From positions 7,130,001-7,194,000 of the forward strand of contig JAGUCH010000005.1 in NCBI GenBank assembly GCA_019096065.1: a stretch of 64,000 nucleotides of DNA. The letters run 5' to 3'. This document shows, piece after piece, positions 27,949-58,075 of this stretch. The position numbers were made by a program, and so were the translations under genes. The stretch's first letter is position 1, and every line of letters starts with the position of its first letter. Origin of the DNA: Paracyclopina nana (lineage: Eukaryota > Arthropoda > Copepoda > Cyclopoida > Cyclopettidae). Below the pieces are notes generated by a model, which did not search any database, had not been told where the DNA came from, and saw only the letters and a program-made list of their open reading frames with translations.

Positions 27949-30900
27949 TTATTCAGATACATTATCGGAGTTTGAAGTGGATGAGCTTGAATGTTGTTGG
28001 TGAGATGATGATGACGATGATGAGTGCGATAGTTCACGTATCGTCGATGGAATCGATGGTCTGATTGGAGGAGGCCGAGGTTCGAGCGGCGGCAGGAGAT
28101 ACCTTGTCGTCTCAGGCAATTCAGGCGTAGCTGGTTGCTCTTGATGTAGTGGCAATAATGGTACATCATGTTGTGGTTGCTTGTCGCCACTTCTAGTTCT
28201 GGAGCGTGAGGCTTGTTCCAACTTTTCTGGGCCTCCTAGGATTTGCTGTGAATATTCTTGCAGCATTTCCGTGCCTGTCCTTCTTTTCCTGGTTGCCGGC
28301 TGGGTTCTTGGTGACTGCGTTGGAATGTCGTCATTTCCATTATTGATTTGATATTGATCATCGTGGTGATCTGGCAAATCATTGTTACCATTGTCTGAGT
28401 GATCGGAGGGAGGCTCAAACATGGTGCAATCGTACTCCGGGATGGTTGGATCGTCATTAAATGGCGGAATAGGATCATCCTTGGCTTGCGGAAATCCGTA
28501 CTCACAATCCGTGGGCGCTACTGCATACTCGAAGGAGTGCGTAGTGTCCGGAGTTGGCTCCTCGGGTGGCGTCTCAGGGGAGCGAATGTGTTCGGCGGAT
28601 TCGTCTCCTGGCATATCGAAGTCCATGTCTTCCATTGGAGGTGCAGAGACTGGTTCCGATTGCGGATCAGCGGGCGCAACGTAAAGCTTGAGCCGATCGA
28701 CAGAGACGACTTGCTTTTTGGTCGGTGGCCATGCAGGGTCTGGCGAGATTTCATACGTGAGCTCGTTGATTCTCTTTTCGATGGTCCACGGGCCCGTCCA
28801 AAAGGTTTGCAGTTTCTTAGAGACCAGCTGCATTACTTTTGGTGTGAACAACCATACCTTTTGTCCTGGCACAAATGCTTGTTTGTCCATATGATAAGCA
28901 CGCCGTTGCCTTTCGATGGAGGCTGATATGTTCTTGCGAGCCCACTCGTGCGCCAGTTGTATTCGTTCGCGCAGTTGCTTGGCGAAACGGCCAGCTTCAG
29001 TGGCCTTGTGCACAGCAGGCTGCGGATCGCCAAATATGAGGTCGAGATTGGTGGTAGGTTGCCTGCCAAATACAATTTCATACGGGGCCAGTCCCGTTGA
29101 ATGGTTCTTAGTGGTGCGTAAGATGAATAATGCAAATGGAACCACTTCAGCCCATTTGGAGTAATGTCCTTTGATCATCTTGCGTATGAGCTCGTTGAGG
29201 TCACGATGGGCTCGTTCCACAGGATTACTTTTCGGATTATATGACGGCGTGGTCGTAGCTTTAATGCCCAAAGCAGTGCACACCTCTCTCATGAGGTGTG
29301 CGGTGAAATGCGTGCCTTGGTCCGTATGGAGCTGCTCTGGCAGTCCGAATCTGGGAATGATCTCAGCGGTGAGGAATCGCACGGCGGTCTCGGCGTCGTT
29401 CGATCGACATGGGAAGGCTTCGATCCATTTGCTGAACACGCACTTTGCAGTGAACAAATACCGGTGCTGGTTGGACGTAGGCTTGAATGGCCCGACGTAG
29501 TCGAGGCTGAGAACTTGGAACGGGAACCCCGCAAGCCGAGACATCAGGGTGTGTCGTTGGTCTGGCACGGCCGGTTTTGCTTTTTGGCATAGCAAACACG
29601 ACTTGACAACCTCGTCGGCCATCTTGGCCATGTTAGGGAAGTAGAAGTGTTGAGTTGCTCTCTGGATCAAGTCGTCGCGACCTCGGTGTCCCATGGATTC
29701 GTGCACATGCCTCAGGCTAGCCTCTTCCCACTTCCGGGGCACGATGAGCCGAGCGGAGGTTCCGCCTTGAGGATCCCGCAGCCGGAGGGCTCCCAGCGGG
29801 TCTAGGTACAGGCTATCAAATTGTTCCATGAGGACCCGCCCCCGGGCGGAAGCGGCATCAAGGTGGGCCCTCGAGGGGGTTTGTTGGAGCCTGACCAGCT
29901 GACGGAGCGTTACCAGGTCATCGTCCTCCTCCTGGGCTTCAGCCCACAACTCTGGCTTGGTGGGGATGAGCTTCAGGTTCGCCACTCTAAAGAAGTCGTC
30001 GTCGGAGACTTCGGCGCTGATGTGGTCCCCCGCTTGGTCAAGGTGGGGCGCTCGACTGAGGGAATCGGCATTGCCATGCTTGGTGCCTGCCTGGTGGACA
30101 ACCTCAAAGTCGTAGTTCGAGATGTTGTCGAGCCACCTGGCCAGCATGCCTGTCGGGGCCTCCATGGAGCGAATCCATAACAGGGCCCGATGATCGGTCC
30201 GGAGGATGAACCGTCAATGCTGCAAATAGTACTTGAATTGCTTAATGAAAATAATGACGGCGACCAGTTCCCCTTGGTTGGCGGAGTAGTTGCTTTGCGC
30301 TGGAGTTAGCTTCTTTGCTCCGTATAATATGACTCTTTCCTTGCCTCCCTGCACTTGGGACAAGACAGCTCCTACGGCTCGGTTTTCCTGAGAGAAGTCC
30401 AAAATGAACGGGTTCGGAGACGCGAAGTCAGGGTACACGAGAACCGGGGCTGACACCAACCGCTTCTTGATTTCTTCAAAGGCATCGCGATATTCTTGCG
30501 AGGGCTCGAAGGTCTGGCTGTCGGAGGTGCCATCATCCTTAGACAACCGTGCAGTAAGAGGGGCAGCGATGTGCTGGTACTTCTCGATGAAGGCCCTGTA
30601 GTAGTTGGCCTTGCCCATGAACACCCGCAGCAGCTTGCGAGTGTTTGGCAGCGGCCACTTGCGGATGAGGTCTATATAGGCCGGCATGACCTCGAGGCCT
30701 TTGGGCGTAACAACGTGTCCAAGGTAAGTGACCCTGGTCTGGAAGAGGTGGCACTTGGTGGGCTTGAGCAGCAGTCCCGCCTTCTGGTGGGCTTGGAGGA
30801 CCATCTTGAAATTTTGCAAATGCGAGTCGAAATCAGGGGAGTGAACCAAACAGTCATCCAGATAGGGTAAGGCCACTTCCCACGGCACACCTTCCAGCAC

Positions 30901-32394
30901 TAAGCGGTTCAAGCAACTGTAGGTCTTGGGGGCATTGGTCAGCCCAAAGGGCATCATCAGGAAGGGGTACGAGCCATCCCCGGTGGAGAAGGTGGTCTTT
31001 TCCACGTCTTCCGCACGGATCGGCACCACGTTGAAGGCGCCCACGGCGTCCAAGGTGGAGAACACAGTGGAGCGGGCTAGCCGACTTAGGTTATCCCTGA
31101 CGTCTCCGATGGGGTGGGAGTCGATTACTGTGACCTTGTTGAGCTCACGGTAATCCACACACCACCTTAGTGCACCGTCCTTTTTGTGGACCGGAACCAG
31201 CGGGGCGGACCATGGAGACGAGATTGGGGTGATAACTTCTTCCTTCAATCACTTCTGGATTTGCTCCTTCAGGGACGCTTCCAGGTTAGGGTTGATAGGC
31301 CTCCGTCGTATGTTGATCGGCCGTGCGCCAGGTTTGAGATCAATCGCGTGCTCCACCAAGTTGGTCTGCCCGGTACGGCCGTCGAAGGAGAAAGCCCCCA
31401 AATATGCGGCCAGAAGGGATGCAGCGGCCCGCAATCGTTCGAGGTGCCGCCGAAGGAGATCGTTCTCCTTGAGCTTGAAGGCTTGGATGACGAACTCGAT
31501 CTTTTCGCGCGGGCCAGTTTCAGGTGGAAGTCCTGGCGGCGGCTCCGCTGCCTGAATGGCCTGCAGATGTGGGGCAGAGGTGGCTGGTGCAGTGGCCTCC
31601 ATGGGCTCATATTCCCGCAGGATGCCGTAACGGGTGCCTCCCTTCACCTGTAGCAGGTGGTCCAGGGGGTTCAACATGCCCACCAGGAGGTGGCCTCCGG
31701 CGGCAGGTTGGACCACGGCGCTCAGCCATGGGGCTAGCTGGGTTTTCTCAACAAACCGTTCTTCGGCCTCCAGGGCTGCGGGCCTGGCGTCGCCGTGAGG
31801 CCACGAGGCTGCAATGGCGGCGATGAGGACGGTGGTCCGCGGCGGAATCTTAGCCGGCCGAAGGATGCATATTGGGTATTCCTCTGGGGCCGGTGGGGCA
31901 GGAGCCCGCAGGGCCCCGACCAGCGGTACGCATTGGCCGTGAATCTTAATGACGCCCCGTGAGTGGAGCTGGTCGATCCGGTGATGGCTCTGGAACGGCC
32001 CGGAGAGGTTGAAGTCCATGGACAGGTTGCGCACCACCGCCGGGCGGATGGAGAACACGTGGGGGTGCTCCCCAAATTGCACTCGCAGGGGTTGCTTAAG
32101 CTCTCCCAGTACTTGCAGGCGGTGGCGGGCGTGGGCGGTGCCCACGGCTGTCATGTCTTCCAGGGGTCGTAGCCCATGTGGGAGAACTCCTAGCCGCTGG
32201 GCGAAGTCCTCAGAGATGCAGGTGCGCCAGCTGTTTCCGCTGTCCACTAGCGCTCGGGTCTTAACACGACCAATGCGGACTGGCACTTTCGTGAGAAATT
32301 GTTTATGATGTGTGATGTGATCTAGCGCGGCCAAGATGAGGGAAGCTGGAGTGACCCGGGCGGAGCCCTCTACAACCGGGTCGGGTCGTTTCCC
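27949..32394 (-). pseudogene. pol: Gypsy-2 pol with two in-frame TGA codons
   Basis: Order: protease (LVDSGNSWRT), RT (YLDD at 30853-30864), RNase H, integrase with H-H-C-C finger (HESMGHRGRD) and D,D-35-E residues (LDYVGPF, HTDQGTHF, ERAHRD), a GPW-type C-terminal module, then about 200 acidic, disordered residues. TGA codons interrupt RT at 31249-31251 (TGG in Gypsy-3) and RNase H at 30214-30216 (CGA in Gypsy-3). A 6-base in-frame loss near 30407 removes Thr-Asp of the first RNase H catalytic motif (FILDFSQ against FILDTDFSQ in Gypsy-3). Otherwise the frame is unbroken over 4.4 kb. It is entered from gag by a -1 shift. Confidence 0.9.
32353..32394 (-). promoter_or_regulatory. Programmed -1 frameshift signal, Gypsy-2
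   Basis: Minus-strand heptamer G-GGA-AAC (32394-32388) lies in gag phase. A 5-base spacer and a 7-bp stem GACCCGG (32382-32376) with CCGGGTC (32359-32353) follow; the gag TAG (32372-32370) is in the 16-base loop. The same arrangement occurs in Gypsy-3. Confidence 0.83.
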
Positions 32395-34148
32395 GCCGGC
32401 GCGTCTCTGGAGGCTTCAGGCCCGGCCTCTGGGCCGGCCTCGCTGATCTCGTTGACCTTGGGTCGTTTGCCGGCGGATTGCTTGCCGTTGGTTGAGTTGG
32501 GGTCCGAGGACCGCTTGCGGTCAGAGGGCGGGGCCGAGCCCCACTTGCCCGCAGTGGAGGAGCGCTGTTGAAGTTGGCTTGCAGCTCGGTACCATTTGTT
32601 GGTCTTGGGGTTGTAACGGCCGTTACGCATGTCCCGCTCGAGGGCGCGGCATTCAGCCTTGCGATGGCCTTTCCGCTCGCAGTAGAAACACGTAATGTCG
32701 GCGTCGGCGTCCGACGAGTGCAAAGCGGCGACCCGGCCTTTGCTCTGCCCGATGGTCAGCCAGCACTCGCCCTGGCAGGCTGCCTCCAAGGCGTCAGCCA
32801 TGGTAGTGAATTTGTGGCCCGCAAGGCCCATCACCACGTCCTTGCGGTGCATCTTGGTGACGAAGATGTGGATGAGGTCGGGATAGGTTTCCACCTCTTT
32901 GGCGAGTTCCGGTCGGGCCCGCACGAAGATGCTCCTCATGCGGGCGTGCCACTGAGGGATAGCCTCGTCCGACTTCTGCTGAGCGGTTTCCAAGGTTATA
33001 CGAGCCACCTGAGAAGAGGTGGCCGTAACAAAGAACTTCTCGTAGGCGTCCAACAGGTGCATGAAGGTGAACGCCTCGTCGTTAAGTCGGAGGTCGACCT
33101 CATTGACCGTACGGAGCGCTACCCCGACCATGGCATGCTTGATTTCCATTTTCTTGGTGGCCTCCGGGGCCGTTGATCCCAAGAAGGTGGCCTCCACATG
33201 CAGGCGGAAAGTGAGCCATTTATCGGCCTCAGTATCCTCGAACTTTTCGAGCTTCCGTTTGCGCCCCGCGCGTGCGGCGGCGGCCTCGGCCTCGAGGCGG
33301 CGGGTCTTGGCTTCCACCTGCCGTAGCTCGGCCTCCCTTTGTCTGGCCTCGAGGTCGGCGTGGCGCTGGGCCTCAAACCCTTGAAGGATCTGGAACATCA
33401 TGGCCTGCATATCCCCCGTAGGCGGAGGAGCGCCGCCTGGCCCGGCCGGTCGAGGCGGCTGGGGTCCCCCAGCGGGTTCGGTGCTCATCCCGGAGGGCGT
33501 GCCCGAGCGGGGTCGGACCCCACCTTGAGCCCCGAGGGGATTGCCCCCTTGGGCCCCACCACCTCCGGATGGCATGAGGACCTCGACCGCGTCTCGATGG
33601 GGGTCGATGGGCTGATTCGCATCGGATGGGCTGGTCTACCAATGGGAAGACAGGTACTCCTCTGGAGGATCCACAACCACAAAGGTGAAGAATCTACAGC
33701 CTAGCTGCAAATCTAGCAGGACAACTAATGGTATTGTGAGACAACACCAAAGAGACCAATAAAGATCCTTCTAAAAGACTTCACTTCACATATGGTGTGA
33801 GCATTGCTCACCTAAGACAAGACTACACATTTCATAAGACAAAGGCCAAAGCATAGCTCTAGCAAATTACAATTGCACATAAAACCTCAATATAAATGAC
33901 ATGATACACTCAATATATAAAATAGATCATTCTGATCTCAATAACTAAATCAATAATACTCAATCATGGTGTTTCTTATTCAACTTCTTCTGGTGCACTG
34001 CAATTCTTACAAAAATTAGCAATGGCTACCGCTGAGGTCTCGCAACGCTGAGAGAAGGAGAGCGCGCCTGGCACAGCACACGGGCCAAAACAGTGTCAGC
34101 CCCTTCATTGGTGGAGGCGGAGTGCAGCGGCGATCGGCTGACAGGCAT
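32370..34148 (-). pseudogene. gag: Gypsy-2 gag, split by a solo LTR
   Basis: The start (ATG 34148, MPVSRSPLHSAS) matches Gypsy-3 gag (MLRSPIHRPSS). After about 65 bases it is cut by the LTR at 33627-34080 and resumes to the stop at 32370. The downstream part has a charged coiled-coil-like segment (about 33240-33400), a capsid-like helical region and one zinc knuckle, CFYCERKGHRKAEC (C-x2-C-x4-H-x4-C). The insertion length does not keep the frame, so only an N-terminally truncated Gag could be made. Confidence 0.85.
33627..34080 (-). mobile_element. Solo BEL/Pao-type LTR inside Gypsy-2 gag
   Basis: It is related to the BEL-1 LTR along most of its length (CTGGTCTACCAATGGGAAG at one end, a GCAATGGCTACCGCTGAG block near the other) but shorter (454 bp). 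Ends are TG/CA; flanks CGGA (33623-33626) and CGGG (34081-34084) look like a 4-bp target duplication with one change. It is a diverged relative, older than BEL-1. Confidence 0.78.
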
Positions 34149-34332
34149 GATCGTATCTAATACTCTGTACAAGAAAGGGTTGGTTTTTAAGCTTATAACC
34201 AATCGGAAATATTTGCGTTTTACCAGCGGTGAGATGGTGCAAAGCGAGAGAAATCGGGGTTGCAATAGCTTTGGAAGTTTCCAACGAACTGTGCTCGACC
34301 CCCGATCAGCTCTCCCTTTATAGTATCACCAT

Positions 34333-34925
34333 TGTCGTAGGCCTTCAGGCTGCCCGACTCGAATCCTCTGAGGACGAAGATGAGCCCGAAGTCTATGACT
34401 TTGAGGTCCTGCAAACTTGGACAGGATCGCGATCCCAATGGCTGGTCTACCAAATGGGAAGACAGGTACTCCTCTGGGGATGATCCACAGCCTCCAATCC
34501 AAGGAGAAGAATCTACAGCCTTGCTGCAAATCTAACTGGACAACTAACTCTGGTATTGTAAGACAACACCAAAAGACCAATAAAAGATCCTTCTAAAAGA
34601 CTAAGACATTCACATATGGTGTGAGCAAAGCTCACCTAAATAAATCTACACATTGCATAAAATAAAGGCCAAAGCTTAGCTCTGACAAGTACAAATTGCA
34701 TAAAACCTTCACATAAATCACATAATATACTCAATAAATAAAATAGATCACTTTGACCTCAATAAATCAATCAGTAGAATTCAATCATGATGTTTTCTTA
34801 TTCAACTTTTCTCTCACACTGAAATTCTTACAAAAATTGGCAATGGCTGCCGCTGAGCTGATGGCGTCGCTGAGGAGGAACGGGTGCGCGTGCGCCTCGC
34901 GCAGCAGCGCAAGCAGGCCGCGACA
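34333..34925 (-). repeat. 3' LTR of BEL-1
   Basis: TGTCGTAGGCCTTC to GGCCGCGACA on the plus strand. Near-identical copies: 47349-47939 and 56357-56949. Confidence 0.93.
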
Positions 34926-34962
34926 GAGTCCCCCCTTGGAGGCCACGCAAGGCCTTAAAGGC

Positions 34963-37900
34963 CTAAGGCCAGCGACTGGCCACGACTAAGGCGTGGTCCT
35001 CCAAGACATGAGTTGTCTTGAAACTCCCGTTTTCTTCCTCCTCGCGCTCCAGGCTGTTGAAGATCTTGATGTCAACATGTCCCTGGGCTCCGTACACGAC
35101 GTCAATATAGAAGCTCTCATGCCGGCTGATCCCTTTGAGGCTGAGGATAGACCCAATGGTGGCCTCCTCGATCTGGGTCACCCAGGGCTTCGTGAATGGG
35201 AGCAAATGATGAAGGATGGCATGGCCAAGCTCTTGACAGCGAGGGCATCTGCTGATGACTCGGGTACACGTGAAGATTGTGTGGCCGTCCTCTCCGCATA
35301 GCGGAAGAGCGCAGCGCAGCTTCTCCACGCAGTCAGCCCTCAAATGGTCGAGGCTGCCACAGCGGCCGCAGTAATGCGGGCACGTCCTGCCGAGGCTGCG
35401 CCTGAAGAGTGCCACGACGACGTGGCTCCAATGAGCCCTATGGGGCGGCACTCTGGTGATGGTGGTGAAGGCGCTGGCCAGGCCAGGATCCACATTGTGG
35501 AAATCAAGCTTATAAAGCTTCCCGCTGCGCCAGTAATCTCGGGTGGCCTGCACTGCATTGACGCCTCGACTTTCATTGGGCCGCAGCATCATCCATTCAG
35601 CATCCATACCATCCTCGGCCTTGGTGCCTCCAATCCACTCCTTTTTGTTGAATGGCCTCAGATTGGTGTCGTCTCTGGGCAGTTTGCCAGGCCCTGGACG
35701 ATTGCGGACTCTATCGCAAGCAAAGTGCGCATGGCGCAGCACATCAGCCTTCGGATCAAATCCATGCCTGCGGAGGCCTTCGGCGGCAATCCTGACAGGC
35801 AAGGACAGGGAGAGGACGTGCTGCAGGCGAAGGTACTCCCACATGTCGGTCGTCCATTGAGAGGAGGGGAGGCTAAAGTCAGCCTGGTCCTTATAGAAGT
35901 GAAACACTTCTTGGCCAGGCAAGAGCGGCGGCGGAGCAGGGGCCTTGCCCTTTTGATGCACAATGGGCACCCTTGGTGCACCTAGCCTGGAGGCGACGTA
36001 GGTCATGTTTGTCACCATGTCCGAGGTCCAGGTGCCGTCCTGAGGGAAGGCGATCAGCCCTAGGCTGTTCGAGTCGCACTTGGCGCTGACTTTCATGTTG
36101 AGGTAGTCAAATCTTCTCTCTTCGACCACGTTGAAGCCTTCAACTCGGACTGAATTCATTTTCAGTAGCTCCAGGATCTTGTTGGGAATCTTGGCCCCAA
36201 GGTAGTCTTTATCCTTGCCCCCATACTTGCTCTGGACCAAAAGGATCGGCGCGCCAATGACCCCGAACGTCATGGATGCGTAACATCCTTCTCTTGGGCT
36301 GCGATCAGTGATGATCCCTTCTCTTCTGAGCGCTTCGATGGTCCAGCTCTGGATGTGGCAAGACATCATGCCCTTTTTTTCAGCCTTGCTGAAGAACCCG
36401 GCCTGCTCCAACTTGGCCCGCACTGTGGCCCAGTCGGCATCATCATCTAGGACTATAAAATCCTCGGCTGGATCTCCCTGAAGATTGAAGGGGCCCGGTC
36501 CATACTCGCAATCCTTGATGGCTTGTCCAAAGGAGTAGGTGTCGTAACAGTTGTCACCGAACATCCTAATCTGCCAATCGCTGGCCTGCAAGTCTGGCTT
36601 CCCTGTCAAGCAATGGTCAGCGTCGCAAGTACCCACTTGTGAGGGGCCATGCTCCAGCCTGACCTGAGCCGTGGAGCAGGGTGGATCTTCGGATGGCAGG
36701 CCCTTGGCTTTGGCGGGGCAGATCAGGGGTGCTCCTGGGGCAGGCTCTTCTTGCTCCACAGGGAGCTGCGGCTCATCAGAGTATTGGTCGCTGCCTAGCT
36801 GTGCCAATCCTCTCCAATACGTCTCAACCCACTCTGGCAGAGGATCCCCAGCTGAGACCAAGGCTCCATAACTTGCCATGACAGCGGCGATGCCCATGTC
36901 GGTGGCGTCTTCAGCCAAGATGGGCAGCCTGGCTGCATAAATGCGCTTCGCGAAGTTTTTGCGTTGCTGCCAGGCCTGGAAGGCCTCTTCTCTCTTGCGG
37001 GGAGTCAAGGAGGGTGTGGGCTTGATCGGGTTCTTCCTGGGATGGGCGATCAGGCAGCTGTTGCAGTACAAAATGTACTTGTCGTGGAGCTTCGGATGAC
37101 ATAGCTTCATGACCTTGATGGGTGGCACACCCTGGACCAGGCAGGACATCCTGAGGCCGTCCATCTTCTCAGCCAGTGTGCAGGCCATCGCCCTTTCAGC
37201 TGCCGATCGAGAGTCTTCTTTCTCACGAGGCCCGTAATCCCATGAATGGCCGAAAAATGAGGTGTGAGGGTCGCAATAGTTTAAAACTTTCGTGGGCACA
37301 GCCATCTTGCCCAGGACTTGATCCTCAAAAAACCCTCTCTTGCATCCATGGGCGGCCTTGATGGCCTTGACAGCGGGATCGACCCATCTTCTCCTGGCGG
37401 GATAGAAATCGGTGCAGGGTCCTGAAACAAGTAACCCTAATTGGTCATATGATCGAAGCCAATTATCGTCCCCCAATGTAGAGTGTCTAACAATATTAGA
37501 GGCCACCCCTGGAGTTAGGTCCGCGCCAGAGGTTTCGTCATCCGAGGCCCCTTCTTTTGGCCACTCGACTGACGACGAGGCTTCCGGCGCCCCTGGCTTG
37601 GCTGACTTCCCGTCGTCAGCCCGACTCGGAGCTATGGGCGACAACGAGATGTTGCGCAAGCCTCGAGATGTTGAGGCCGGCTCGCTCTTGGACGTGGAGG
37701 CTACAGGAGTGGGGGAAGACTCTGCTTGAGACTCCGCTTGATCTTCAAGTCTTCTCCTCCTGCGGGCGGGTGAGTGGATTGAGCTGAGGGTGACATCCCT
37801 TGCTCTCACTCTGGGAGCCGACTTCTCTCCATCTTCCGCTCCCGATTGGGTTTCATCCAGCAGAGCCAAGTCCACGTCAAGGACTACTCCTTCCCATTCC

Positions 37901-38811
37901 ATCTCATTTTCTTCACGACTCTCCAACAGCCCAGCTTGGCTGGACTGCAAGTCTCCTAACTCCAGGGAGGCTTGGCCTCCACTGCTTTCCTCCCCACTAA
38001 CTAAAGTCGAAATACCTTTAGAAGCGGCTTGGCCACGCAGCTGACTCTCGTCAGCGTCCTCCATCAAGGATGGGGCCAGCTGCCCCTCTTCGCCGCTCGC
38101 GGCCATCATGGGGTCCACGGCCATCGTGGGCACCGCGGTCGCCTCGCCTCCTGAGGTGGAGTTGGTTGAGGTCGACCTCTCTTCTTCGCCGACGCCGACG
38201 GCGACGGCCGTCGCTTCTTCCGCCATCGTCTTGCTCACAACAACAGGGGCGGGGTATTGGGCTACGTTGACCTCTTCACTGGGTCGGCCTTCGGGCACGA
38301 ATCCCTCAAGGTTCGACGGAGCCAGATCTTGATCTTCCATTTCGTCTTGAATTGAAAATTCGCTTGAGCACTGTAGAACGCTAGTTCCAAGATTGGACTG
38401 GCCGATCGTTGAGTTCTCAGCAGATGAGTGGAAACGGAAGGTAGTACTCGCGCACATCTCAGTTTTGGCGCAAGAATTCAGGGCCGAGGTTGCGTGAGAC
38501 ATCTCAGAGTGTTGCGTCATTTCGCGGAAAATATGTTCCCGTTGAAAATAAAAACAATTACACCAAGTGTAAACAAAAATGACGTCATGAAAACTTGACT
38601 TTAAAAGGAATGTTAAAAAAGTGTAGTGAATAATACGGCGAGCATTGCTCGTCCAGACTAAATTGGGAAAGAAGAATTGAAAGTGCGAAGCCTGGCTTCT
38701 TTTCCTTCCCATGGTGGCTCCAAAATTTTTGGAGTGCGAGCCTGGCTCGTAAACTGCTCTAGTCATGGCTAGTTTGGGCTGACCCTGAGGACCTCGCATG
38801 AAGTCCCCCAT
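34963..38811 (-). CDS. BEL-1 ORF2: unrecognised protein in env position, CCHC zinc knuckles
   Basis: A 1282-codon open frame between pol and the 3' LTR. The first ~95 codons cover AT-rich DNA and overlap the pol end by 53 bases in another frame; ATG 38520 (MTQHSEMSH), giving 1185 residues, is a likelier start. No signal peptide or membrane span is evident after that start, so it is not a typical Env. The N-terminal third is acidic, Ser/Ala-rich and probably disordered, with a basic patch PARRRRRLE. The middle has a Cys/His cluster (LCHPKLHDKYILYCNSC). Near the C-terminus (35210-35370) come CGRCGSLDHLRADC, a C-x4-C-x4-H-x4-C variant and CPRCQELGH, resembling nucleocapsid knuckles. I do not recognise the fold. 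RNA binding is inferred; it could be a second gag-like or regulatory protein, or captured host sequence. Confidence 0.75.
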   Translation of the reverse strand: MGDFMRGPQGQPKLAMTRAVYEPGSHSKNFGATMGRKRSQASHFQFFFPNLVWTSNARRIIHYTFLTFLLKSSFHDVIFVYTWCNCFYFQREHIFREMTQHSEMSHATSALNSCAKTEMCASTTFRFHSSAENSTIGQSNLGTSVLQCSSEFSIQDEMEDQDLAPSNLEGFVPEGRPSEEVNVAQYPAPVVVSKTMAEEATAVAVGVGEEERSTSTNSTSGGEATAVPTMAVDPMMAASGEEGQLAPSLMEDADESQLRGQAASKGISTLVSGEESSGGQASLELGDLQSSQAGLLESREENEMEWEGVVLDVDLALLDETQSGAEDGEKSAPRVRARDVTLSSIHSPARRRRRLEDQAESQAESSPTPVASTSKSEPASTSRGLRNISLSPIAPSRADDGKSAKPGAPEASSSVEWPKEGASDDETSGADLTPGVASNIVRHSTLGDDNWLRSYDQLGLLVSGPCTDFYPARRRWVDPAVKAIKAAHGCKRGFFEDQVLGKMAVPTKVLNYCDPHTSFFGHSWDYGPREKEDSRSAAERAMACTLAEKMDGLRMSCLVQGVPPIKVMKLCHPKLHDKYILYCNSCLIAHPRKNPIKPTPSLTPRKREEAFQAWQQRKNFAKRIYAARLPILAEDATDMGIAAVMASYGALVSAGDPLPEWVETYWRGLAQLGSDQYSDEPQLPVEQEEPAPGAPLICPAKAKGLPSEDPPCSTAQVRLEHGPSQVGTCDADHCLTGKPDLQASDWQIRMFGDNCYDTYSFGQAIKDCEYGPGPFNLQGDPAEDFIVLDDDADWATVRAKLEQAGFFSKAEKKGMMSCHIQSWTIEALRREGIITDRSPREGCYASMTFGVIGAPILLVQSKYGGKDKDYLGAKIPNKILELLKMNSVRVEGFNVVEERRFDYLNMKVSAKCDSNSLGLIAFPQDGTWTSDMVTNMTYVASRLGAPRVPIVHQKGKAPAPPPLLPGQEVFHFYKDQADFSLPSSQWTTDMWEYLRLQHVLSLSLPVRIAAEGLRRHGFDPKADVLRHAHFACDRVRNRPGPGKLPRDDTNLRPFNKKEWIGGTKAEDGMDAEWMMLRPNESRGVNAVQATRDYWRSGKLYKLDFHNVDPGLASAFTTITRVPPHRAHWSHVVVALFRRSLGRTCPHYCGRCGSLDHLRADCVEKLRCALPLCGEDGHTIFTCTRVISRCPRCQELGHAILHHLLPFTKPWVTQIEEATIGSILSLKGISRHESFYIDVVYGAQGHVDIKIFNSLEREEEENGSFKTTHVLEDHALVVASRWP
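38579..38588. promoter_or_regulatory. CRE/ATF-like palindrome upstream of ORF2
   Basis: ATGACGTCAT, a full CRE palindrome, lies 59 bases before ATG 38520 in AT-rich non-coding sequence. It could be an internal promoter element; function is unproven. Confidence 0.35.
38657..38685 (-). promoter_or_regulatory. Candidate 3' splice site before ORF2
   Basis: The minus strand reads TTCTTCTTTCCCAATTTAG, a pyrimidine tract ending in AG at 38658, about 140 bases before ATG 38520. A spliced subgenomic mRNA, as used for retroviral env, would explain expression of ORF2. Confidence 0.45.
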
Positions 38812-41800
38812 TTGTAGGGCGTGAGCTCAGAGCTTGCGAGGACGACGCGTCTTCTGACTGTCTCCAGAAGTGGTAAGAGGCTCCTTCTTCTTTACTGGCG
38901 ACCATTTCTCTCTCCAGTCTTTCCAGGCTTGCCCAATCTGAGTCGATCGCCAGCTCCTCCATTATGGGAGCCTCGCTCCTAGCCTTTCTTGGGTACTCGA
39001 GGTAGTAATCCGAGTCTCGAAATACGTCGAGTGGAACGAGATTCATGGCTGCCTTTTCGTAGACTACTGCTACCTTTGAAGCCTCACTTGGTCCTGGCGG
39101 CACCATTCTCACGTAAGCCCTTCTTACTTCTCCGTCAATATCTCGTTTGACTTTCTCTACTATTCCCAGAGGCCAGTAATATCTTCGCTCGGAATGTACT
39201 TTGTCGATGACAGCAACCACATCTCCTTTGGTAAGGCTCTTTATGTGATTGATCCATTTTGGCATCTTCTTTAATTGAAGCACCAATTCCTCGGTAAAAT
39301 GCTCCCACATCCTCTGCAATGCAGAGTCGATGAGTACATATCTTTGCTCCAAGGTTTCCAAGGCTTCTTTTCTAATGATGGGCAGTGAGTCCCCTGGGGG
39401 GCCCCGAGTAAGGAAGTGGTTAGGGGTCACGAAATGTCCATTCACTTCTCCAATGGGGCGACTGTTTATGAAACCTTCAGATTTAACCATTATGTATCGG
39501 AAGTCTTCCAGCTTGGTAACCTTCTTGTTATACTGGCGATAAAAAGTCTTTTTGAATATGCGGACCGCTGCCTCTGCGAGCCCGTTGAAATGAGGGGCCC
39601 AAGGGGGGGAGAGTGTCCATTCAACCACGCCCATGTGTCCCCCAAACTGCCTTAGTCGATCCCAATCAATCAACTTGAGACTTTCCTTAAGCTCCGCATA
39701 TCTTTCGTTCACTCGAAGGTCTTCTCGGCATCCTATAAAGTTAGAGCCGTTGTCGCTCCTGATGGCATAAGGGCAGCCTCGCCTAGCGATGAACAACTCC
39801 AAAGCCCTCATCAAGGAGAGCGAGCTCATGTCATAAACTTCTTCGCAGTGTATAGCTTTAGAATGCAAGCAAATGAACACTATCACGTACATATGGTACT
39901 CGGCTCTATTGAATGTTGTCGTGAAGGGTCCACACATGTCAATGCTCGTGTAGCGGAAGGGCAAAAATTCAGTGATGGGAATTGCATGTGGAGGCAGTAG
40001 TCCCATGTGAGGAATAAGAGGCTTCAATGTCCATCTCTTGCACATAGCACAGTCCTTTAGAATTTTCGCGATGATGGGCTTGGCGTTCGGGATCCAATAA
40101 AGCTTTTGGGCTTCACACAGATACCTGTTGCGACCGTACCCATGGCCAACTAATTTGTGCATGTCTTCCAACACGAGCCGCCTGGCGGCCCCTGGAATTA
40201 TCAGTTGTCTGCGACCTACCCAGGCTGCCAAGGTGGCATCTAGCCTGCCCCTAGTCCTAATTTCCCCTTGGGGGCCGAGCACGGGATCCAAAGGCCCCAA
40301 TTTCGAGCCCTTGGGCCATTCACCAGTACTCATGAAGTGATCGAGTTCATGAGCATAATGCTCCTGTTGGATCCAGATAGCTACCTGGTTTTCCACCCAT
40401 CGATATTCTTCGTCTTGAGGCGTGCCCACGGGGGTTTCTTCCCATGGTGATATGATCTTCAAGGCTGCTCATCTGGCGAGGCAGATCACTCGTATCATCC
40501 GACTCCACGAAGAAAAGTCATCCAGCGGTACATGCTTCCATTGGAATTCATGGTTGCCTTCAAAGATGACGGTGACTCGCCTGGCGACATACCCTTTCCA
40601 ATTACCAGCGGGCTTGCATATCCAAGTCAGTGCGCATTGAGAATCTGTCCAGAGCGTGACCGAGTCTATTTTATCCAGACTTTTGATGAGATCTTGGCAA
40701 AGCTCGGTGCCTAGCACGCAGCCATTCAATTCCATCTCTGGCATTGATCGGACCTCCCTCAAAGATGCCAAGTTCAGCCTGGCTGCCATCAGCATGCATT
40801 CCACGGAGCCATCAGGGTACACCGATCTAATGTAGGCTGCTGCGCCCTTGGCCATTTCACTTGCATCGGTAAAGATGTGGAGCTCCAGCCTGGCTGCGGC
40901 TCTTGCTCTCACGGCTCGGGGCATTCTGAAGACCTCTACTCGCTCCACTTGCTTTACGTAGTCGCTCCACTCGGCAATTATCTTCTCCATTTCTGGGTGT
41001 TCTAACATGTCTAACGCAGTGTCCCATTCGATGGCAAATAGCATTCGCATTTGCCAGACTCTTTGAATGAGTCTCTTGCCTTGGAGAACGAATGGTGCCA
41101 GCAATCCCAAAGGATCATGAAGCCTAGGCACAAACTGAGCCATCATTCGCATAGTGAGGGGCGCCTGGCGCATGTACTCTGCATCGGTGGGTTGAAAAAC
41201 TATCTGATCTGCAAGGCAGTCTACGTACAAGCCTAAGGCTTTAGTGATATCGCTATTTTCAGCGTGTAGCTGAAACCCAGGGAGAATCAAATCTGGATCG
41301 ACATCTGCTAATGCGCCTGGCGCATTGCTTCCCCATTTCCTAAAGGGCATGGCCCCTTCGTCTCCTACCTCGAGAATCTGTTTGATAGCTTCTCTGGCCT
41401 CCTGCTCGTCCTCCACGGAGGCGAAGACATCGTCTACATAGAGAAACTTATCCAAGATGTGGAAGGCGAGCGGATGTGAATCTTGAAATTTGGATATATG
41501 ATGCTTCATGGCAAACGTTGCCATGCATGGGGCTGAAGCAGTTCCAAACACCACCGATGAGGGCTCGTAGCATATTCCTTGCCACACAAATCTGTGGAAC
41601 TTCCTGGATTCCGGATCAAGCTTAAAGCGTAGAAACATCTTGCTTATGTCTGCGACGATCATCACGGGCTTCTCTCTCGCCCCAACGAGAATCTCGAAGA
41701 CATTTCGCTGCAGCTTAGGGCCTGGCAAAAGCGCATCATTTAGACTTTTGCCAAAATGCTTTCTGGCTCCATCAAATACTACTCTGACGGGCATTGACGG

Positions 41801-44800
41801 TTTGTCTGCCCTGACTACCAGCAGCCAATCAAGATAATTCCCTTCATCCAGATTGTCGACTTCGGGATCCAGCATCCTGACGAATCCTTGATTCAGCCAA
41901 TCAACTATCTCTTGAGTTGCCTTGTTGTACAGATCTTCGTCATACAGAAACAGTTTCCTCTCCAGCTTGGCTGTATCTTTGGCTACCCTGTTCCTATTGC
42001 AGAGGAAGACTGGCTCGCCATCCAACCACATAGGGCTCAGTTGATATGACTTGTCTTCGAGTTGTGTGATGGTGCCAATTAGAATATCTAGCGCTTTTTG
42101 ATCATTAATACTTAGAGCAGGCGGCCTTTCAATTTGCGGTCTATCAAATTCCCACATGGCTTCAATGCATTCGATGGGTGCTCCTGGCAACTGAGTGGTG
42201 TCCGGGGTTTGACCCGAGGTTTGACCACAGTGGTCGCAGAGAGGCACTCCTGGAGGCTCAGCTTTTGAGTCCTCGCCTGGCGAGGGTAGTGCTGCCACAC
42301 AAACTACTTTTTCTTTTTGTGGTTGTGCTTCTGGGTCATAATAAGTCATGACTCTTCCCAGTGCACAGTCATATATATAGGGGTCCCCTTTCTCTTTGTG
42401 GATAATTGATTGCGGCATGATCAGGTTGAAGCAGTCCAAACCCAGCAAAATGTCCGGCCTCGGCGTTCTTGCGTACTTGGGCAACTCTACATTTTTTAGG
42501 AACTCGAATTTTTGTTTTAGCTTGGCTACTGGTGGAGTGACAATGGTGGCTGGCAACTCCTGTATAGTGTGGACAGGGATGTCATGCCATTCACTTCCCC
42601 CCACTGCTTTAACCCTGATCTTGACCAGCGAGCTGGAGATAGTGACGGATGTGGCGATCATTTTTAAGACTTGGTCTTCTTTTACGCCTGCTAACTTCAG
42701 TCTCTCTTTTAGCCTCTCTGTGGCCATTGAGAGCTGCGCTCCTGTGTCGCAGAAGGCATTTACTTTGATATATTCTCCAGTCTCAGGGTTCGCCACCATA
42801 ATTGGGACGACGCAATAGCTCAAAAGTCCATCCTCTGCAGTGGCTAACATTGCTGTTACTTCCATTGGTTCTTTTGATTGTTGCAGAAGCTCTTGCTTCA
42901 TTGGGTCTATATTGTCCCAGTCGTCACCTTCAATCTCTTCATTAGAGCTCCTTGGCTCGTCTTCTTTTTCCTCATCTTCCAATTGAAGATCCGGTAATGC
43001 TTTGAAATTGTCTCTTATCGTTGCCGTTGCGAGCTGGGAAACTGGCTGCATATAATCATTGCCTTGCAATCTATGCACGCTTATTGCGCTAAATGCACCC
43101 ATGGTGTTGGATGCTTGGCTTCCCCCCATCCTACTTACTGCCTGGGAAGCATTGCTTCCCCCCATTTGGATATGGTTTGCAGATTTTGCTTGATTGAGTA
43201 GCATGGCTACAGTGTTTTCCAGCTCTTTAATCTTTTTGTCTTGTTCTTTGCTGACTTGTACTCTTGGTTCTTCGTCCTGGAATTTCTTTTCCGGCTTTTG
43301 ATTTCTCGTAGCCCATGCTTCGTGCAGCAGGTAGTGGTGTGATTTTTCACCACATTCCTTGCACTTCCAGTTCTTTTTACATTCGTATACGTTGTGAACC
43401 CCGCCAAGGCATCGAAAGCATGCATTAAAGTCGCGCGCCCTTTTTATCCTCCCTTTACAGTGCATGGCTAGTAGGTGCGGGCAATTGTACAAAGAATGAT
43501 CCTTGACTTCGCATATTGGGCATTTGGTAAAGTACCTCTGGTCCCCCGTAGACACTGTCATTACGGTGAAACCGCCATCTTCTCTGCATGCTGGATATTC
43601 CATTTCTGCAAAAGGATCCTCCTCTGAGGAGGGCGTATCGTTTGGTTCGTACGGGTCAGGAACAACATTTTTAGTGGCTTCGGTTTGATGTACGTGATGC
43701 AAGCCTTGCTTGTTGGCGAGGGGTTTTTTGGCCTTTTCAGTTTTTCTGACCTTGTAATTCCCTTGGCACCTGGTGATCTTTTGGTACTGGCTCGTCCAGT
43801 CGATGAATAACTGGAAGGTGAGGTGAGTTTTTCTCTCCGTGAGCAGTAGTTGGTTGATGTGATGCCTGGCATTGTCTGTCAATCGCAAGTTCCTGAACAC
43901 ATTGCTGTCTTGCAGCTCTCCATAGTAAGAGTTAGTATCGTTGAGATGACGTCGAATACTTTTAATGAGAGCTCTGGCATTCATCACGTTTTCTTGATCA
44001 TCCATGTCCAATGGAGGAAGCTCAGCCAACTGTTGCATGTAATAGTTGTACTGCAGAGTGTCATTTCCATACTCTTCTTCTAGTAGGGTCAGTGCATGAT
44101 AGTACCCTGTTTCAGTTTTGGGTAGCTCATTTATGAGCTCTCCTGCTGGCCCACCCTTGGTGGCATCTAACAATCTCGCCCACTTTTCGAACGTCGGCAT
44201 GGCCGGGTCGTTGTGCACAAATGAGCGAAAGCGGTCCCGAAAAGTATAATACTCTGTTGGATACCATCCATCAAACGATGGAATTTCCACAGTATTCAGC
44301 TTGATGCTTGATTTTCCGTAGACGCCCATTTGGCGTGGAGGAACATACGGCCATGGTTCTTCCATGTGGGCTTGGCCCTCAAAGTGGTCATTGTTTTGGC
44401 TATTGGACCTTCTGCCTATGTCGGGCCCGCCTGGCGGGCCTCTTTCTACCCTACTGTTTGGCCTTGGCCATCTCAGTTGGAAGACTCGATGGTCCAGACC
44501 TCCAGGTGGATGAGCGGGTTGGAAGACTCGATGGTCTTGACCTCCAGGTGGATGAGCGTTTCCCCCCATGGGTTGACCCGGTGGTGGATACACATCATAG
44601 TTGTATGGAGGAGGCACGTTGCCTGTAATTCCTGGGATTCTGCTGCTTGGGGGTGGTACATTGTAGGGCGGCGCAAGTGGTCCCGGAGGAGCGTAATGAC
44701 CCGCAAACATATTAGTCGCCATGGGATTCGAAAAGCTTGTCACCGTCGAAGGTTGTACATGAGGTGCGTTCAGCCTTGGAGCTGACCAGCCTGGCTGACC

Positions 44801-47287
44801 CCATGAAGCCATATGGTCGATGCTTCCAACCTGACTAGGCATCACGAATGGGGAAGCGTTGCTTCTCAGATCCGACTGAGACATTAGTGCACCTGAACCG
44901 TGAGCCCATGTGGTCCTGGTTATTGGATTTGCCTGAGTGAACGTTGTCACTGCCTCTGAGGGGACAACCATGGACGAAGCGCAAGGAATGGCTTGGGCTG
45001 ACGTAGTAGTAGACATGAACTGCCTGGCAGTATCATGCTGGATCCTAAGTGATTCAAGCCTGGCTTGGTCGGTCCTAACTCTTATCTCTTGTTCCGCCGC
45101 AGTTTGTGCATCTAGCGACATGCGCATTAGCTCGTCATCCTGTTGAGGAGCTTCTTCTCCAGTTTCAATCAGATGCTCTCTTGCACGCATGTAATCATTA
45201 ATTCCTTCGCAGAGAGTATCATAAAGTTCACGCATGGCTTGTGTAGTCTGGTGCTCTTGAATGGCTTGATTCATTCGCCTAGTGGTGTCCAGAAGCTGAG
45301 TTAGTGCTCCGGAGTACGCCATTGCTACTCTCATGTAGTTTCTTCTTGTAGTAGAGCTGACTACAGATGCCGAGTTGTGCCCTGGAGTTGTCTGAACAAC
45401 AGAGCTTCTTCTTTCTTGAGAGTCCTGCGCGGCAGCCCCCTCACCACGAAGCAGTGCCGCAACCTGTTGTGGGCCTGCGCCAGGATCCAGCCTTGGAGGA
45501 GGTTGTCTGACAGCGTGATGCCTACTGAGTGCCTGATCAATCTCGCCGGCTCTTGCTCTGGGAAGACTTCGCAGCCATTCTTTAGTAATTGGGAATTGAG
45601 CTTGTTCTGCGTTGAGGGTGAACACCTCCATAGAGTCCCTTCTCAAGAGCCTGACTCCTTGGTCTGGGCCCATTGTCTCGACAAGATAGTTTCCAGTATT
45701 GTTGCCTTGTTCGTCCCAATCTTGTGGCAGCGGAGTTCCAATAGAGAAATCGTTGTTTTCCTGTTGCAACCGTGCTATTTGTTGCATGTTCATTCCATTG
45801 TAGTGCGCTTGGCTCGCAGCTCCGCCAGTTTGCGGTGGCAGCCCGCTGGAAGCCGCGCCGGAGCTCGTTTGCGCCATCCCGACGTTGCTACTTGTCAAAT
45901 TGTTGTCGGTGTTCTGCGCCGCGTTTCCCCGTTGAGAAGTCGCCGCTGGTTCGGGCAGAGACCTGCTCATGCGATTGCTTACTAGCCTGTTGCGATGCGC
46001 AATCAAGTCATCAATGGAATGCATCAAGCGTTGAGCTCCATTGTAGGCTTTACTGAAGTTCGATCTCAAGGAAGTCGAGGGTTCAACTCTTGCTACTTGT
46101 GCGGCATTATTGTAGTCTGCTTTCAATCGGTTGAGCTCCCTCAGCATGGCTTCCAGGGTGTCTTTGTCCTTGGCAAGCCTTTCATTCGAGGCCCTATCTT
46201 GAGACTCAAATATTTCTTTCCTGGTTTTGGTGCAGAAGGGTACGACCTCTTTGAATTTTTGTTGCATGTAAGTTGCGACTCTCTCTGTCTGCTCCTGAGA
46301 CTTCCTTATGGCTGCAGCCCTTTCAGGTGTTACCTTTGCAGCATTCGGTCTGGTTTTGGTGCCAGTTGGCCTGTATTCCCCAGACTTGCTGGTGGGAACG
46401 GCTCTTTGTCGAGTACCAGCCAATGAAGGGTCCCTTCTGGGAGTGATTCCAGATGAGGTTGAAGGGTTGGGATTATCTACAACCTGTTCAGACCCAGACT
46501 GAGCCTTAGGCCTCTTGTTTCTCCTCAGATTATAGGGTTGAAAGATCGAGGGTTGGAAGTCCGCGGACGAGCTAGCCGCGACATGGAATTGTATGTTTTC
46601 CGCAGATTTTCCTTGAGCTTGAGATCCAGCTTGGCTGGCCGCTCCCATTGTTCCAGGGTAGATGAGTGGTATGTATGGCTCCGGTGCCGCTCCATAGCTC
46701 TGATCTCGGGGCATCGGCACAAATGGCGCAGCTCCAACGTTCATGGAGCTGGAGGTGCCCTGAGCTTGGCTCAAATACGAGCCATCTACTTGCGAGTTGG
46801 ATGGCATGGCAGCCTGCCTCAACGAGCCCGCAGAAGCTTGGATAGGTTCAAGGTTTCCTCCGCCAATTGCTTGGGACAAGTTTTGGGCGGCGTTTGAGCC
46901 TGGAGGTGTACGGTACATCTCGTTGGAGTGGAATCCGTGAAAGAGAGATGTCTCCGAAGGTAGATTGAGCGGATCCAGCGTCACCAAATTCGCGGCCGGA
47001 TCAGGACCCTCTTGAATGGTCCTTGCAAAACTTTCGATCTCGTTAATCCACTCGTAGGAGTCAGTGCTTGGCTCTACGAATATGAAAGACTCAGAGGTCC
47101 CTCCCAATGTGTCAGAGCCAAATTCCTCTCTCTGATTCCTCCAAATATGCCTGGCTTGCGTAAATGGAGAAATTTCCAAATTGGGAAAAGAGTTGCCGTG
47201 GTTCTCAGGAGGTTGCCCTCGGACTCTTCTGCTAATGCGCTGAGGTTGTGGCGTGGATTCGGAGTACCGTGTTGGCAAGCCTGACAT
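38759..47287 (-). CDS. gag-pol: BEL-1 gag-pol polyprotein with one in-frame TGA
   Basis: From ATG 47287 (MSGLPTRYSES) a single frame runs 2272 codons to a TGA at 40469-40471, then reopens in the same frame to 38759 (about 569 more). Gag is Gln/Pro/Ser-rich, with three Cys/His knuckles near 43340-43500 (CPICEVKDHSLYNC, CFRCLGGVHNVYEC, CKECGEKSHHYLLH). Protease FCDTGAQ has D-T-G at 42740-42748; RT has YVDD at 41429-41440; RNase H has IFTDASE and LWTDSQ. After the TGA comes integrase: zinc finger (HKLVGHGYGR to CAMC) and catalytic motifs SIDMCGPF, IRSDNGSNF and NGLAEA. The TGA separates RNase H from integrase, so this copy lacks integrase unless the stop is read through, mutated only here, or an error. 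Confidence 0.9.
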
Positions 47288-47327
47288 TGACTTGCTCAAT
47301 TCAAGGTTGAGATTTAGGGCCTGTCGT

Positions 47328-47345
47328 GCCCCACGTTGGGCGCCA
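47328..47345 (-). promoter_or_regulatory. Primer-binding site, BEL-1 (tRNA-Lys type)
   Basis: The minus strand reads TGGCGCCCAACGTGGGGC three bases inside the 5' LTR. This is the familiar tRNA-Lys-type primer site of many retroviruses and Gypsy elements. Confidence 0.88.
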
Positions 47346-47348
47346 CTT

Positions 47349-47939
47349 TGTCGTAGGCCTTCAGGCTGCCCGACTCGAATCCTCTGAGGACGAAGATGAG
47401 CCCGAAGTCTATGACTTTGAGGTCCTGCAAACTTGGACAGGATCGCGATCCCAATGGCTGGTCTACCAAATGGGAAGACAGGTACTCCTCTGGGGATGAT
47501 CCACAGCCTCCAATCCAAGGAGAAGAATCTACAGCCTTGCTGCAAATCTAACTGGACAACTAACTCTGGTATTGTAAGACAACACCAAAAGACCAATAAA
47601 AGATCCTTCTAAAAGACTAAGACATTCACATATGGTGTGAGCAAAGCTCACCTAAATAAATCTACACATTGCATAAAATAAAGGCCAAAGCTTAGCTCTG
47701 ACAAGTACAAATTGCATAAAACCTTCACATAAATCACATAATATACTCAATAAATAAAATAGATCACTTTGACCTCAATAAATCAATCAGTAGAATTCAA
47801 TCATGATGTTTTCTTATTCAACTTTTCTCTCACACTGAAATTCTTACAAAAATTGGCAATGGCTGCCGCTGAGCTGATGGCGTCGCTGAGGAGGAACGGG
47901 TGCGCGCGCCTCGCGCAGCAGCGCAAGCAGGCCGCGACA
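47349..47939 (-). repeat. 5' LTR of BEL-1
   Basis: Bounded by TGTCGTAGG and GCCGCGACA, 591 bp, adjacent to the primer site. The 77-96-codon ORFs inside it are not genes. Confidence 0.93.
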
Positions 47940-48602
47940 CCAAATCAGCACAACGGCTGCTCTCACGGCCAGCGGGGATTTTTGGCCCCCTGACAAATTG
48001 TTTCAGAAGACACTCTCAAGATTGTTTACGCGATCTGGTTTACGACCGGAGATTTAGACGGCCAATTTTAGCTATTTGGCCATTAGCAGAGCTCCATTAG
48101 CAACAGGATGTGAAGCTTAGTTTACAACTTCTAGTAGTTGCAATGGCAATTGATCCTCCCTTGTTACTGGGGCCGCCTTGAGATCTCGCCCATAAAGAGG
48201 CCAGCGACTTGGCTGTTTTACGACCATATTTGTGTGTGCAACAATGCCTGGTCTCAGAGCAGCATTTTATGGCTGTATTTTGTGCTAAACAATGCGGGGT
48301 CCCGAAAGTGACCGTGGGCAGGATCATTTGATAAGCAGCTGGAGCGGACCCATCGACGGGTCGAGGAGGGATTAACCTCCTTGTCAATTAACGACCTTGA
48401 GTAACTCTTGTTGTTCCTATTGTGTTCCTTGGGTATGAGGGCAACGGCTCGCTGTCGGCGTCGCCCGTGGCTTGTGGTGTGCCCCCCCGGCCACGCCTGT
48501 TACTGGCGGTTTACTTGGCCATATTGCTGTCCCTTGTTTGCGGGTTTTGCTTGGGCAAAGGTGTCGGTAACTCGGGGAGTTGTCCTCAGCACCGTGCCAA
48601 CT
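47940..48602 (-). other. Gypsy-2 5' leader, separated by BEL-1
   Basis: In reverse complement it matches the Gypsy-3 leader (58490-58930), for example GATTGTTTACGCGATCTGG against GATTGTTTACAAGATCTGG. It continues at 34332 on the other side of BEL-1. It contains the primer site TGGCACGGTGCTGAGGA (48599-48583). ORFs here are not supported. Confidence 0.85.
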
Positions 48603-48799
48603 TGTAGAAGGTTCGTATCGACCCCCCCAGGGTGACACGCGCGCCCGCGGGTAGCCAGGGAAGCCTAGCTACCAAAGAATAGTCGAGGTGTTTACTCGAG
48701 CATGTCCGTTTATTAACTAGCTCTACAATCAGTCATTCACCGGGACGGGGCGCTCCCGCGCGCCCACGAGCATACCCGTATACCCGCGTTCCTGCTACA
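48603..48799 (-). repeat. 5' LTR of Gypsy-2
   Basis: TGTAGAAGGTTCG to TTCCTGCTACA, 197 bp. It differs from the 3' LTR by a few bases (for example GCGCGCCC against GCGCTCCC). The right flank starts TTAA. Confidence 0.9.
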
Positions 48800-49065
48800 T
48801 TAAACGCTTGCAATAACTTTAAGAGAGAAAATAAAATGGTGTTACCTTAAGTTAAGCCTGAATTGATTAGGTTAAATAATTTAATAAGAGATGGTGCCAC
48901 TCAAATTGCACGAGCGAGTGCTCAAATTTACACACTTCCCCCTTTGATTGTTCTGTTTTTATTTTAGCTGAAAAAAAGCTGAGAACTTCTTGAATCAAGT
49001 AATTTTAGGATACTGGCAGTGAAAAATTTCAGCAACTATTTTTCATCCGAGCGTAGCTTGTCGCT
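48800..49065 (+). repeat. Zinc-finger 3' flank copy beyond Gypsy-2
   Basis: TTAAACGCTTGCAAT through TTTTTCATCCGAGC matches 24475-24750. It is the far side of the Gypsy-2 insertion site. Homology stops where Gypsy-3 sequence begins. The duplicate is at 57810-58075. Confidence 0.82.
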
Positions 49066-56295: not shown

Positions 56296-56356
56296 TGACT
56301 TGCTCAATTCAAGGTTGAGATTTAGGGCCTGTCGTGCCCCACGTTGGGCGCCACTT

Positions 56357-57809: not shown

Positions 57810-58075
57810 TTAAACGCTTGCAATAACTTTAAGAGAGAAAATAAAATGGTGTTACCTTAAGTTAAGCCTGAATTGATTAGGTTAAATAATTTAATAAGAG
57901 ATGGTGCCACTCAAATTGCACGAGCGAGTGCTCAAATTTACACACTTCCCCCTTTGATTGTTCTGTTTTTATTTTAGCTGAAAAAAAGCTGAGAACTTCT
58001 TGAATCAAGTAATTTTAGGATACTGGCAGTGAAAAATTTCAGCAACTATTTTTCATCCGAGCGTAGCTTGTCGCT
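57810..58075 (+). repeat. Duplicate of zinc-finger 3' flank
   Basis: Copy of 48800-49065 within unit 2; no gene. Confidence 0.85.

Follow-up and report, generated by a model that had tools for sequence, protein, structure and literature searches.

The 64,000-nucleotide stretch of the Paracyclopina nana genome analyzed here (the window) carries on its minus strand a BEL/Pao retrotransposon bounded by long terminal repeats (LTRs), with a large additional open reading frame (ORF), ORF3, between pol and the polypurine tract. We consider it probable that ORF3 serves a large BEL/Pao clade as a translated accessory gene under selection, and that its product combines a predicted, catalytically dead DEDDy exonuclease fold with zinc knuckles and would bind RNA without cutting it. 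This interpretation draws on computational observations of its position, the selection acting on it, its predicted fold, the loss of catalytic residues, the proximity of its start to the pol stop and the open spacer that follows that stop. A sequence-only reading of the same DNA had pointed, with no strand given, to a large unrecognised frame in the envelope (env) position of a young element. The frame is real, being open at 34963..38811 on the minus strand and encoding 1282 aa from its ATG, and the plus-strand reading has many stops. Its non-envelope character and its knuckles were read correctly; the predicted dead fold, the family of more than a hundred elements and a precedent in rotifers were missed.

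A DNA search with 338 bases led to 8 places in the genome (10 contigs, 92 Mb). Among the seven other copies retrieved, ORF3 was open in six, one of them (L014) without the N-terminus, and was broken in L009 by one frameshift and one stop. A protein search with the window's ORF3 gave at least 42 matches in 36 main rows, at 28-100% identity with the window's own included, and among the matches listed the matched stretch was free of stops in 33 of the 36 main rows. Related BEL copies from the host genome, whose collection the sequence-only reading had proposed as a check, carry ORF3 in the same place at 28-98% identity. Searches seeded by more distant members added at least 14 and then 72 ORF3 entries; in the latter search, with rows down to E 8e-4, 29 of 101 rows were omitted as secondary pieces or loci already listed. 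With 36 of the 42 rows of the window-seeded search these make 122 entries, corresponding to 121 loci including the window's own, L009 being counted in two pieces.

Among the listed entries, 110 of 122 lie on the same strand as, and no more than 6 kb downstream of, a match to BEL integrase or DUF5641, compared with 1 to 5 of 122 in a shifted-coordinate control; one entry, C4:6374033, was scored as unlinked although integrase was seen beside it. Viewed from pol, an ORF3-like neighbour accompanies 53 of the 77 listed integrase matches (40/43 in the best rows and 13/34 in the weaker rows) and 77 of the 150 listed DUF5641 matches. ORF3 is therefore the mark of a large BEL clade and is present in over a hundred elements; in other BEL elements of the same genome no ORF3 was found at the search sensitivity used. 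All of these counts are lower bounds, because only part of the candidates was scored (36 of 266 in the window-seeded ORF3 search, 46 of 257 and 139 of 139 in the distant-seeded ones, 77 of 520 for integrase and 150 of 229 for DUF5641). Distances between ORF3 sequences rise together with those between the integrases (r = 0.85 over 24 loci, with L034 and L049 excluded; none of 999 permutations reached this value), a co-divergence that fits long common descent. Two pairs of ORF3-like matches with equal or almost equal scores, C9:5657553-5658326 with C9:5668218-5668991, 10 kb apart, and C8:2784165-2787353 with C2:7972102-7975290, located on separate contigs, suggest that duplication or transposition may have occurred recently.

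Sequence comparison between copies indicates that ORF3 is under strong purifying selection, with nonsynonymous change (pN) far below synonymous change (pS), in agreement with the selection suspected from the single copy. With near-duplicate copies set aside, pairwise values for the core (residues 427-1125) were pN 0.087-0.282 and pS 0.679-0.769, and those for the knuckle part pN 0.058-0.287 and pS 0.557-0.703. The adjacent integrase, compared between the window and four copies, gave pN 0.096-0.173 and pS 0.814-0.826, so that the ORF3 core appears to be constrained about as much as its neighbour. Values for the acidic part, which begins at a conserved Met-Glu at 38340 and extends over 37489..38340, were pN 0.239-0.494 and pS 0.630-0.745, and those for the first 142 codons, an open but weakly constrained N-terminal extension at 38341..38766, were pN 0.411-0.632 and pS 0.485-0.739. 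The acidity described from the sequence is borne out by a net charge of -29 for residues 101-300, counted from 38766.

Profile and predicted-structure comparison, also proposed by the sequence-only reading, gave a DEDDy exonuclease fold as the predicted structure. In the model predicted from 25 sequences, structure comparison identified an RNase H-like fold of the DnaQ/RNase D, DEDDy exonuclease type at 35635..36546 (model residues 302-605), preceded by a part of the core predicted to be mostly helical at 36790..37449 (model residues 1-220) and followed, near the C-terminus, by a predicted helix and four-strand beta region at 34966..35184. The best structural match of the exonuclease-fold part was the RNase D of Trypanosoma brucei (PDB 7c42-7c4c), a cellular protein whose structures were determined with RNA and nucleotides, at 10-12% identity; Egalitarian and Nibbler, both host genes, were further fold matches. 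A viral fold library returned nothing at E 0.001 or better, its best entries being exonucleases and DNA polymerases.

As judged from the alignment, the DEDDy active site is lost in the window's clade and kept in two distant members. The wider clade was represented by 23 rows (26 aligned, minus L038, which is near-identical to L037, and the partial L049 and L050). The motif I aspartate is kept in none of the 23, being replaced by His in 18, Ala in 3, Gln in 1 and Gly in 1, and the motif III aspartate is replaced in all 23; no Asp stands next to the motif I or III places in the printed alignment rows. Searching the genome with PF01612 yielded 22 matches. Several frames of 365-826 codons had the strongest scores, and the matches also include 12 frames whose length is 998-1219 codons, of which three exceed the cut-off. 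One of these, L059, is placed in the ORF3 family by hhalign with a probability of 98 (E 1.5e-13), passes PF01612 with 25.7 bits against a cut-off of 23.6 and sits 2 kb downstream of a pol end recognised by its DUF5641 match. Its motifs I-III read IDTE, DMDLRKF and YDRQD; those of L060 read FDTE, EDIPKF and YDRED, so that both of these distant BEL relatives (2/2) have the catalytic residues.

The C-terminal CCHC-type knuckles seen earlier were recovered as three motifs at 35206..35370 (CX2CX4HX4C, CX4CX4HX4C and CX2CX4HX4H). At least one CX2CX4HX4C knuckle is present in 24 of 25 aligned rows, the remaining row being a truncated copy; 19 of the 25 have three knuckles and 5 have two. A profile of the knuckles matched Lin28 (E 0.008) and T. 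brucei RNase D (E 0.009), and with the single sequence the sole PDB match, a weak one at E 0.25, was again the CCHC-type stretch of that RNase D. The match of PF00098 to the ORF3 knuckles was below its cut-off. An origin by duplication of gag was rejected: when the ORF3 core was compared by hhalign with the part of the element's gag-pol that precedes its stop, the knuckle motif alone matched (probability 1.4).

ORF3 probably starts at 38766, giving a protein of 1267 aa (34963..38766), with its ATG at 38766-38764 beside the pol stop at 38761-38759. The position of the ORF3-frame ATG relative to the pol stop was compared in 12 distinct copies of the window's subclade; L013, a near-duplicate of L012, and the broken or truncated L009 and L014 were set aside here and in the open-spacer test below. 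The ATG lies at -5 nt in the window, -1 in L010, -5 in L011, -8/-5 in L012, -1 in L015, -1 in L023, -14 in L025, -19 in L027, +34 in L028, +2 in L030, -4 in L033 and -1/+2 in L036, that is, within 19 nt of the stop in 11 of 12 copies. These offsets are not constant modulo 3, and proximity is therefore kept while the relative frame changes. Additionally, the 420 nt past the pol stop are open in the ORF3 frame in all 12 copies, with 4-14 stops in each of the other frames, and shuffled spacers leave that frame open with a probability of 0.000-0.011. The suggestion from near-neutral pN/pS that the 142 codons before the Met-Glu are non-coding was dropped, given this open spacer in 12/12 copies. Ribosomal frameshifting from pol is unlikely, since the frame of ORF3 relative to pol differs between close copies (-5 in the window, -1 in L010).

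By analogy with SART1, stop-restart translation would be the simplest reading of this arrangement: a fraction of the ribosomes terminating on pol would restart at the adjacent ATG and produce ORF3. The accessible text of PMC5972666 describes for SART1 an overlapping stop and start that couple two ORFs and a need for RNA structure downstream of the overlap; the stop/start adjacency is similar in ORF3, where it is known from sequence alone and downstream structure is inconsistent. The overlap is a trait of the window's subclade, because in other copies ORF3 begins past the pol stop: it opens 102-545 nt after it in 11 further copies (L032, L037-L043, L049-L051), and in L046-L048 the first ATG follows 62-275 nt after it.

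These sister-group copies also bear on an alternative to stop-restart that we regard as possible but rather less likely than not, namely that ORF3 has an mRNA of its own, spliced or started internally, and that the palindromes common to LTR and spacer serve a second promoter as transcription-factor sites. Over six copies, with the near-duplicates L012 and L013 both included, the motif RAGCNNNGCTY occurs 18 times in the spacer (2,709 nt) and 12 times in the sequence taken as LTR (3,600 nt), against 8 times each in ORF3 (20,196 nt) and pol (17,103 nt), giving 6.6, 3.3, 0.40 and 0.47 per kb. Each of the six copies has 2-4 in the spacer and two in the LTR stretch, and shuffled spacers average 0.055-0.117. 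The outer base pair covaries (GAGC...GCTC vs AAGC...GCTT), and the palindromes may be sites for a dimeric factor or short RNA hairpins. In the window the N-terminal extension holds three of them together with TTACACNNNGTGTAA, a sequence present in 4 of 5 distinct copies. A separate mRNA would have no need of an ATG that hugs the pol stop in either relative frame or of a spacer that is kept open, and spacer palindromes are present in only 7 of the 12 copies, the closer ones, and missing in five. The palindromes form arrays, often about 48 nt apart, in the LTR and spacer of the window, L010-L013 and L015, and in the spacer of L023 and L025 as well.

Since the active site appears to be lost in this copy's clade, the ORF3 protein most likely binds RNA uncut. 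It might hold the element RNA, its 3' end, or small RNAs aimed at the element, and the held RNA could then be built into a ribonucleoprotein (RNP), protected or moved, much as the catalytically dead EXD1 and Maelstrom act in PIWI-interacting RNA (piRNA) work. These two host genes share with ORF3 the exonuclease fold without catalytic residues. The closest precedent in mobile elements comes from bdelloid rotifers, where LTR elements (Juno, Vesta) and Athena/Terminon carry a DEDDy-type ORF3 (PMC5408684; also PMC6338049 and PMC6431247, as far as their accessible text goes). The available part of PMC5408684 reports intact catalytic residues (DEDD -> DEED) and an evolution not significantly different from neutral, mentions Cys-His-Cys residues for Vesta2 and Vesta5, and names as relatives Maelstrom and EXD1, in which catalysis is lost and RNA binding kept. 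Like the bdelloid ORF3, the present one is an extra gene after pol with a predicted RNase D-like DEDDy fold and no membrane parts; unlike it, it belongs to BEL/Pao elements, has lost its active site within a clade, is under strong purifying selection, and is about 1000-1600 codons long with an N-terminal part and knuckles. No DEDDy ORF in BEL/Pao was found in the open-licence literature searched, and the accessible portions of a BEL/Pao survey (PMC3118150), a Daphnia LTR survey (PMC2996953) and an ostracod survey (PMC7998251) describe none. The rotifer DEDDy ORF3s are thereby extended to BEL/Pao elements of another animal. Extra post-pol genes are often filed as env or left unnamed, and here such a gene encodes a selected protein with a predicted nuclease fold in more than a hundred elements. 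Apparently intact and dead ORF3s side by side offer a natural comparison for the exonuclease's use and for dispensable catalysis. More tentatively, and with clearly less confidence than in the accessory gene itself, one genome may hold the whole path of a captured enzyme: an apparently intact DEDDy ORF3, then a large derived clade with a dead, RNA-binding ORF3 under integrase-like constraint, a transposon-encoded counterpart of EXD1/Maelstrom that would help the RNA to escape or use the small-RNA machinery and would be made by stop-restart.

A narrower proposal is that ORF3 is a silencing suppressor, a decoy for small RNAs or piRNA-pathway partners that copies EXD1/Maelstrom. The same kind of dead DEDD fold with zinc-binding residues as in the host factors, and lasting selection on an accessory gene, agree with it, but a role in RNPs or packaging accounts for the same facts; as a special case of the RNA-binding accessory gene it is somewhat unlikely to be the correct one. 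It seems improbable that ORF3 acts as a 3'-5' exonuclease whose active site has been rearranged, trimming element RNA or cDNA or destroying small RNAs: the fold, the two distant relatives with all catalytic residues and, in the available text of PMC5408684, the rotifer ORFs with intact residues speak for activity, but the motif I and III aspartates are gone in 23/23 rows, the window included, with His at the motif I position in 18/23. An envelope or env-like cell-entry gene is very improbable and was rejected. Such a gene would suit the position between pol and the polypurine tract, and a small fusogen-like protein is reported for env-less insect LTR elements in the accessible part of PMC11952523; against this stand the nuclease fold and knuckles, the lack of any Pfam env match and the lack of a membrane span. 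As the sequence-only reading had held, no membrane span was found (highest 19-residue Kyte-Doolittle mean, 1.41), nor a signal peptide, as judged by hydropathy alone. A chance-open frame in a copy this young, or a host gene inserted recently, has a negligible probability as an explanation and is refuted, despite the near-identical LTRs, by the conservation of ORF3 in more than a hundred elements, its co-divergence with integrase and its strong selection. The questions set by the sequence-only reading, whether other copies lack the ORF or carry it randomly broken, and whether it is a known env or a one-off host insertion, were pursued and none of these proved to be the case; its suggestion of a captured host gene agrees with a fold that is that of cellular exonucleases, and fails as a recent, one-off event.

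Several observations weigh against the reading of ORF3 as a dead, RNA-binding exonuclease homologue made by restart. A model from 7 sequences reached a predicted local distance difference test (pLDDT) score of 30, and the window's fold therefore depends on one 25-sequence prediction. Sequence searches from the window's own ORF3 gave no significant match to a known protein; the protein database gave none with the single sequence (residues 400-1280) or a 7-row alignment, and plasmid records gave none. The residue losses are read from an alignment in which the columns of motifs II and III may be displaced by one from one aligner to another, the motif I glutamate is kept in 4/23 rows, and motif II retains an acidic residue in 20/23 (Asp 10, Glu 10). 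Catalysis may have been rebuilt; intact residues were seen in two distant relatives only. Synonymous sites are saturated, which makes the pN/pS ratios rough. The true start could be the conserved Met at 38340, because the N-terminal extension is nearly unconstrained, and further in-frame ATGs lie upstream of the restart ATG in L012, L025 and the window (38811 and 38799). Strong RNA structure downstream of the restart site was inconsistent, with z scores of -3.10, -1.63, -0.75, -2.01, +0.15 and -0.94 relative to shuffles.

The element itself has LTRs with TG...CA, a primer binding site, a polypurine tract and an empty site. The 5' LTR (47348..47939, with its TG...CA ends read directly) and the 3' LTR (34332..34925, with two RAGCNNNGCTY palindromes spaced 49 nt) are 99.66% identical, with 0 mismatches over 594 columns and a single 2-nt gap, confirming that the element is young. 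The primer binding site at 47328..47345, read from the sequence, is complementary to a tRNA 3' end, which we take to be that of tRNA-Lys(CUU), and the polypurine tract at 34926..34939, likewise read directly, adjoins the 3' LTR. Gag-pol occupies a single frame (38759..47287), interrupted in this copy by one in-frame stop at 40469-40471. By Pfam search its Pao-type domains follow the customary order: DUF1759 gag, gag knuckles, DUF1758/Asp protease, RVT_1, Peptidase_A17, H2C2, rve and DUF5641. Matches were PF05380 (3e-33), PF03564 (4.6e-13), PF00078 (1.8e-7), PF17921 (7.3e-7) and PF18701 (4.7e-10), with PF00665 (rve, 3.9e-7) below its cut-off. The target duplication is approximate only (CCAT left, CCAA right), and a related empty site lies inverted at about 58494-59130, where the joined flanks match at 79% over 566 columns.

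Part of the element and its right flank recurs in a 9-kb tandem duplication (40591-49608 and 49606-58618, 99.86%) that cuts through the element and leaves a third LTR at 56356-56949. The tandem copies are separated by 2 substitutions and 8 short indels, located largely within homopolymers or short repeats; in the second copy the reading frame of gag-pol is broken up, by assembly error or recent decay, which are indistinguishable here. Directly beside the element, 33629-34078 is about 83% like the LTR and is probably a solo LTR that is older and belongs to a related family. The element is flanked by two 4.8-kb stretches, 28796-33596 and 59194-64000, that are 82% alike, lie in opposite orientation and contain long frames, probably another mobile element. 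In the genome search, (TTAGG)5 had 9,278 matches, including stretches near both ends of contig 1, and (TTAGGC)4 had none; the TTAGG arrays are presumably of the arthropod type. A search of the genome for SL1 was silent, as were its controls. At 22667-24148, a 493-codon frame consists of tandem units of about 87 bases, as estimated from self-match offsets.

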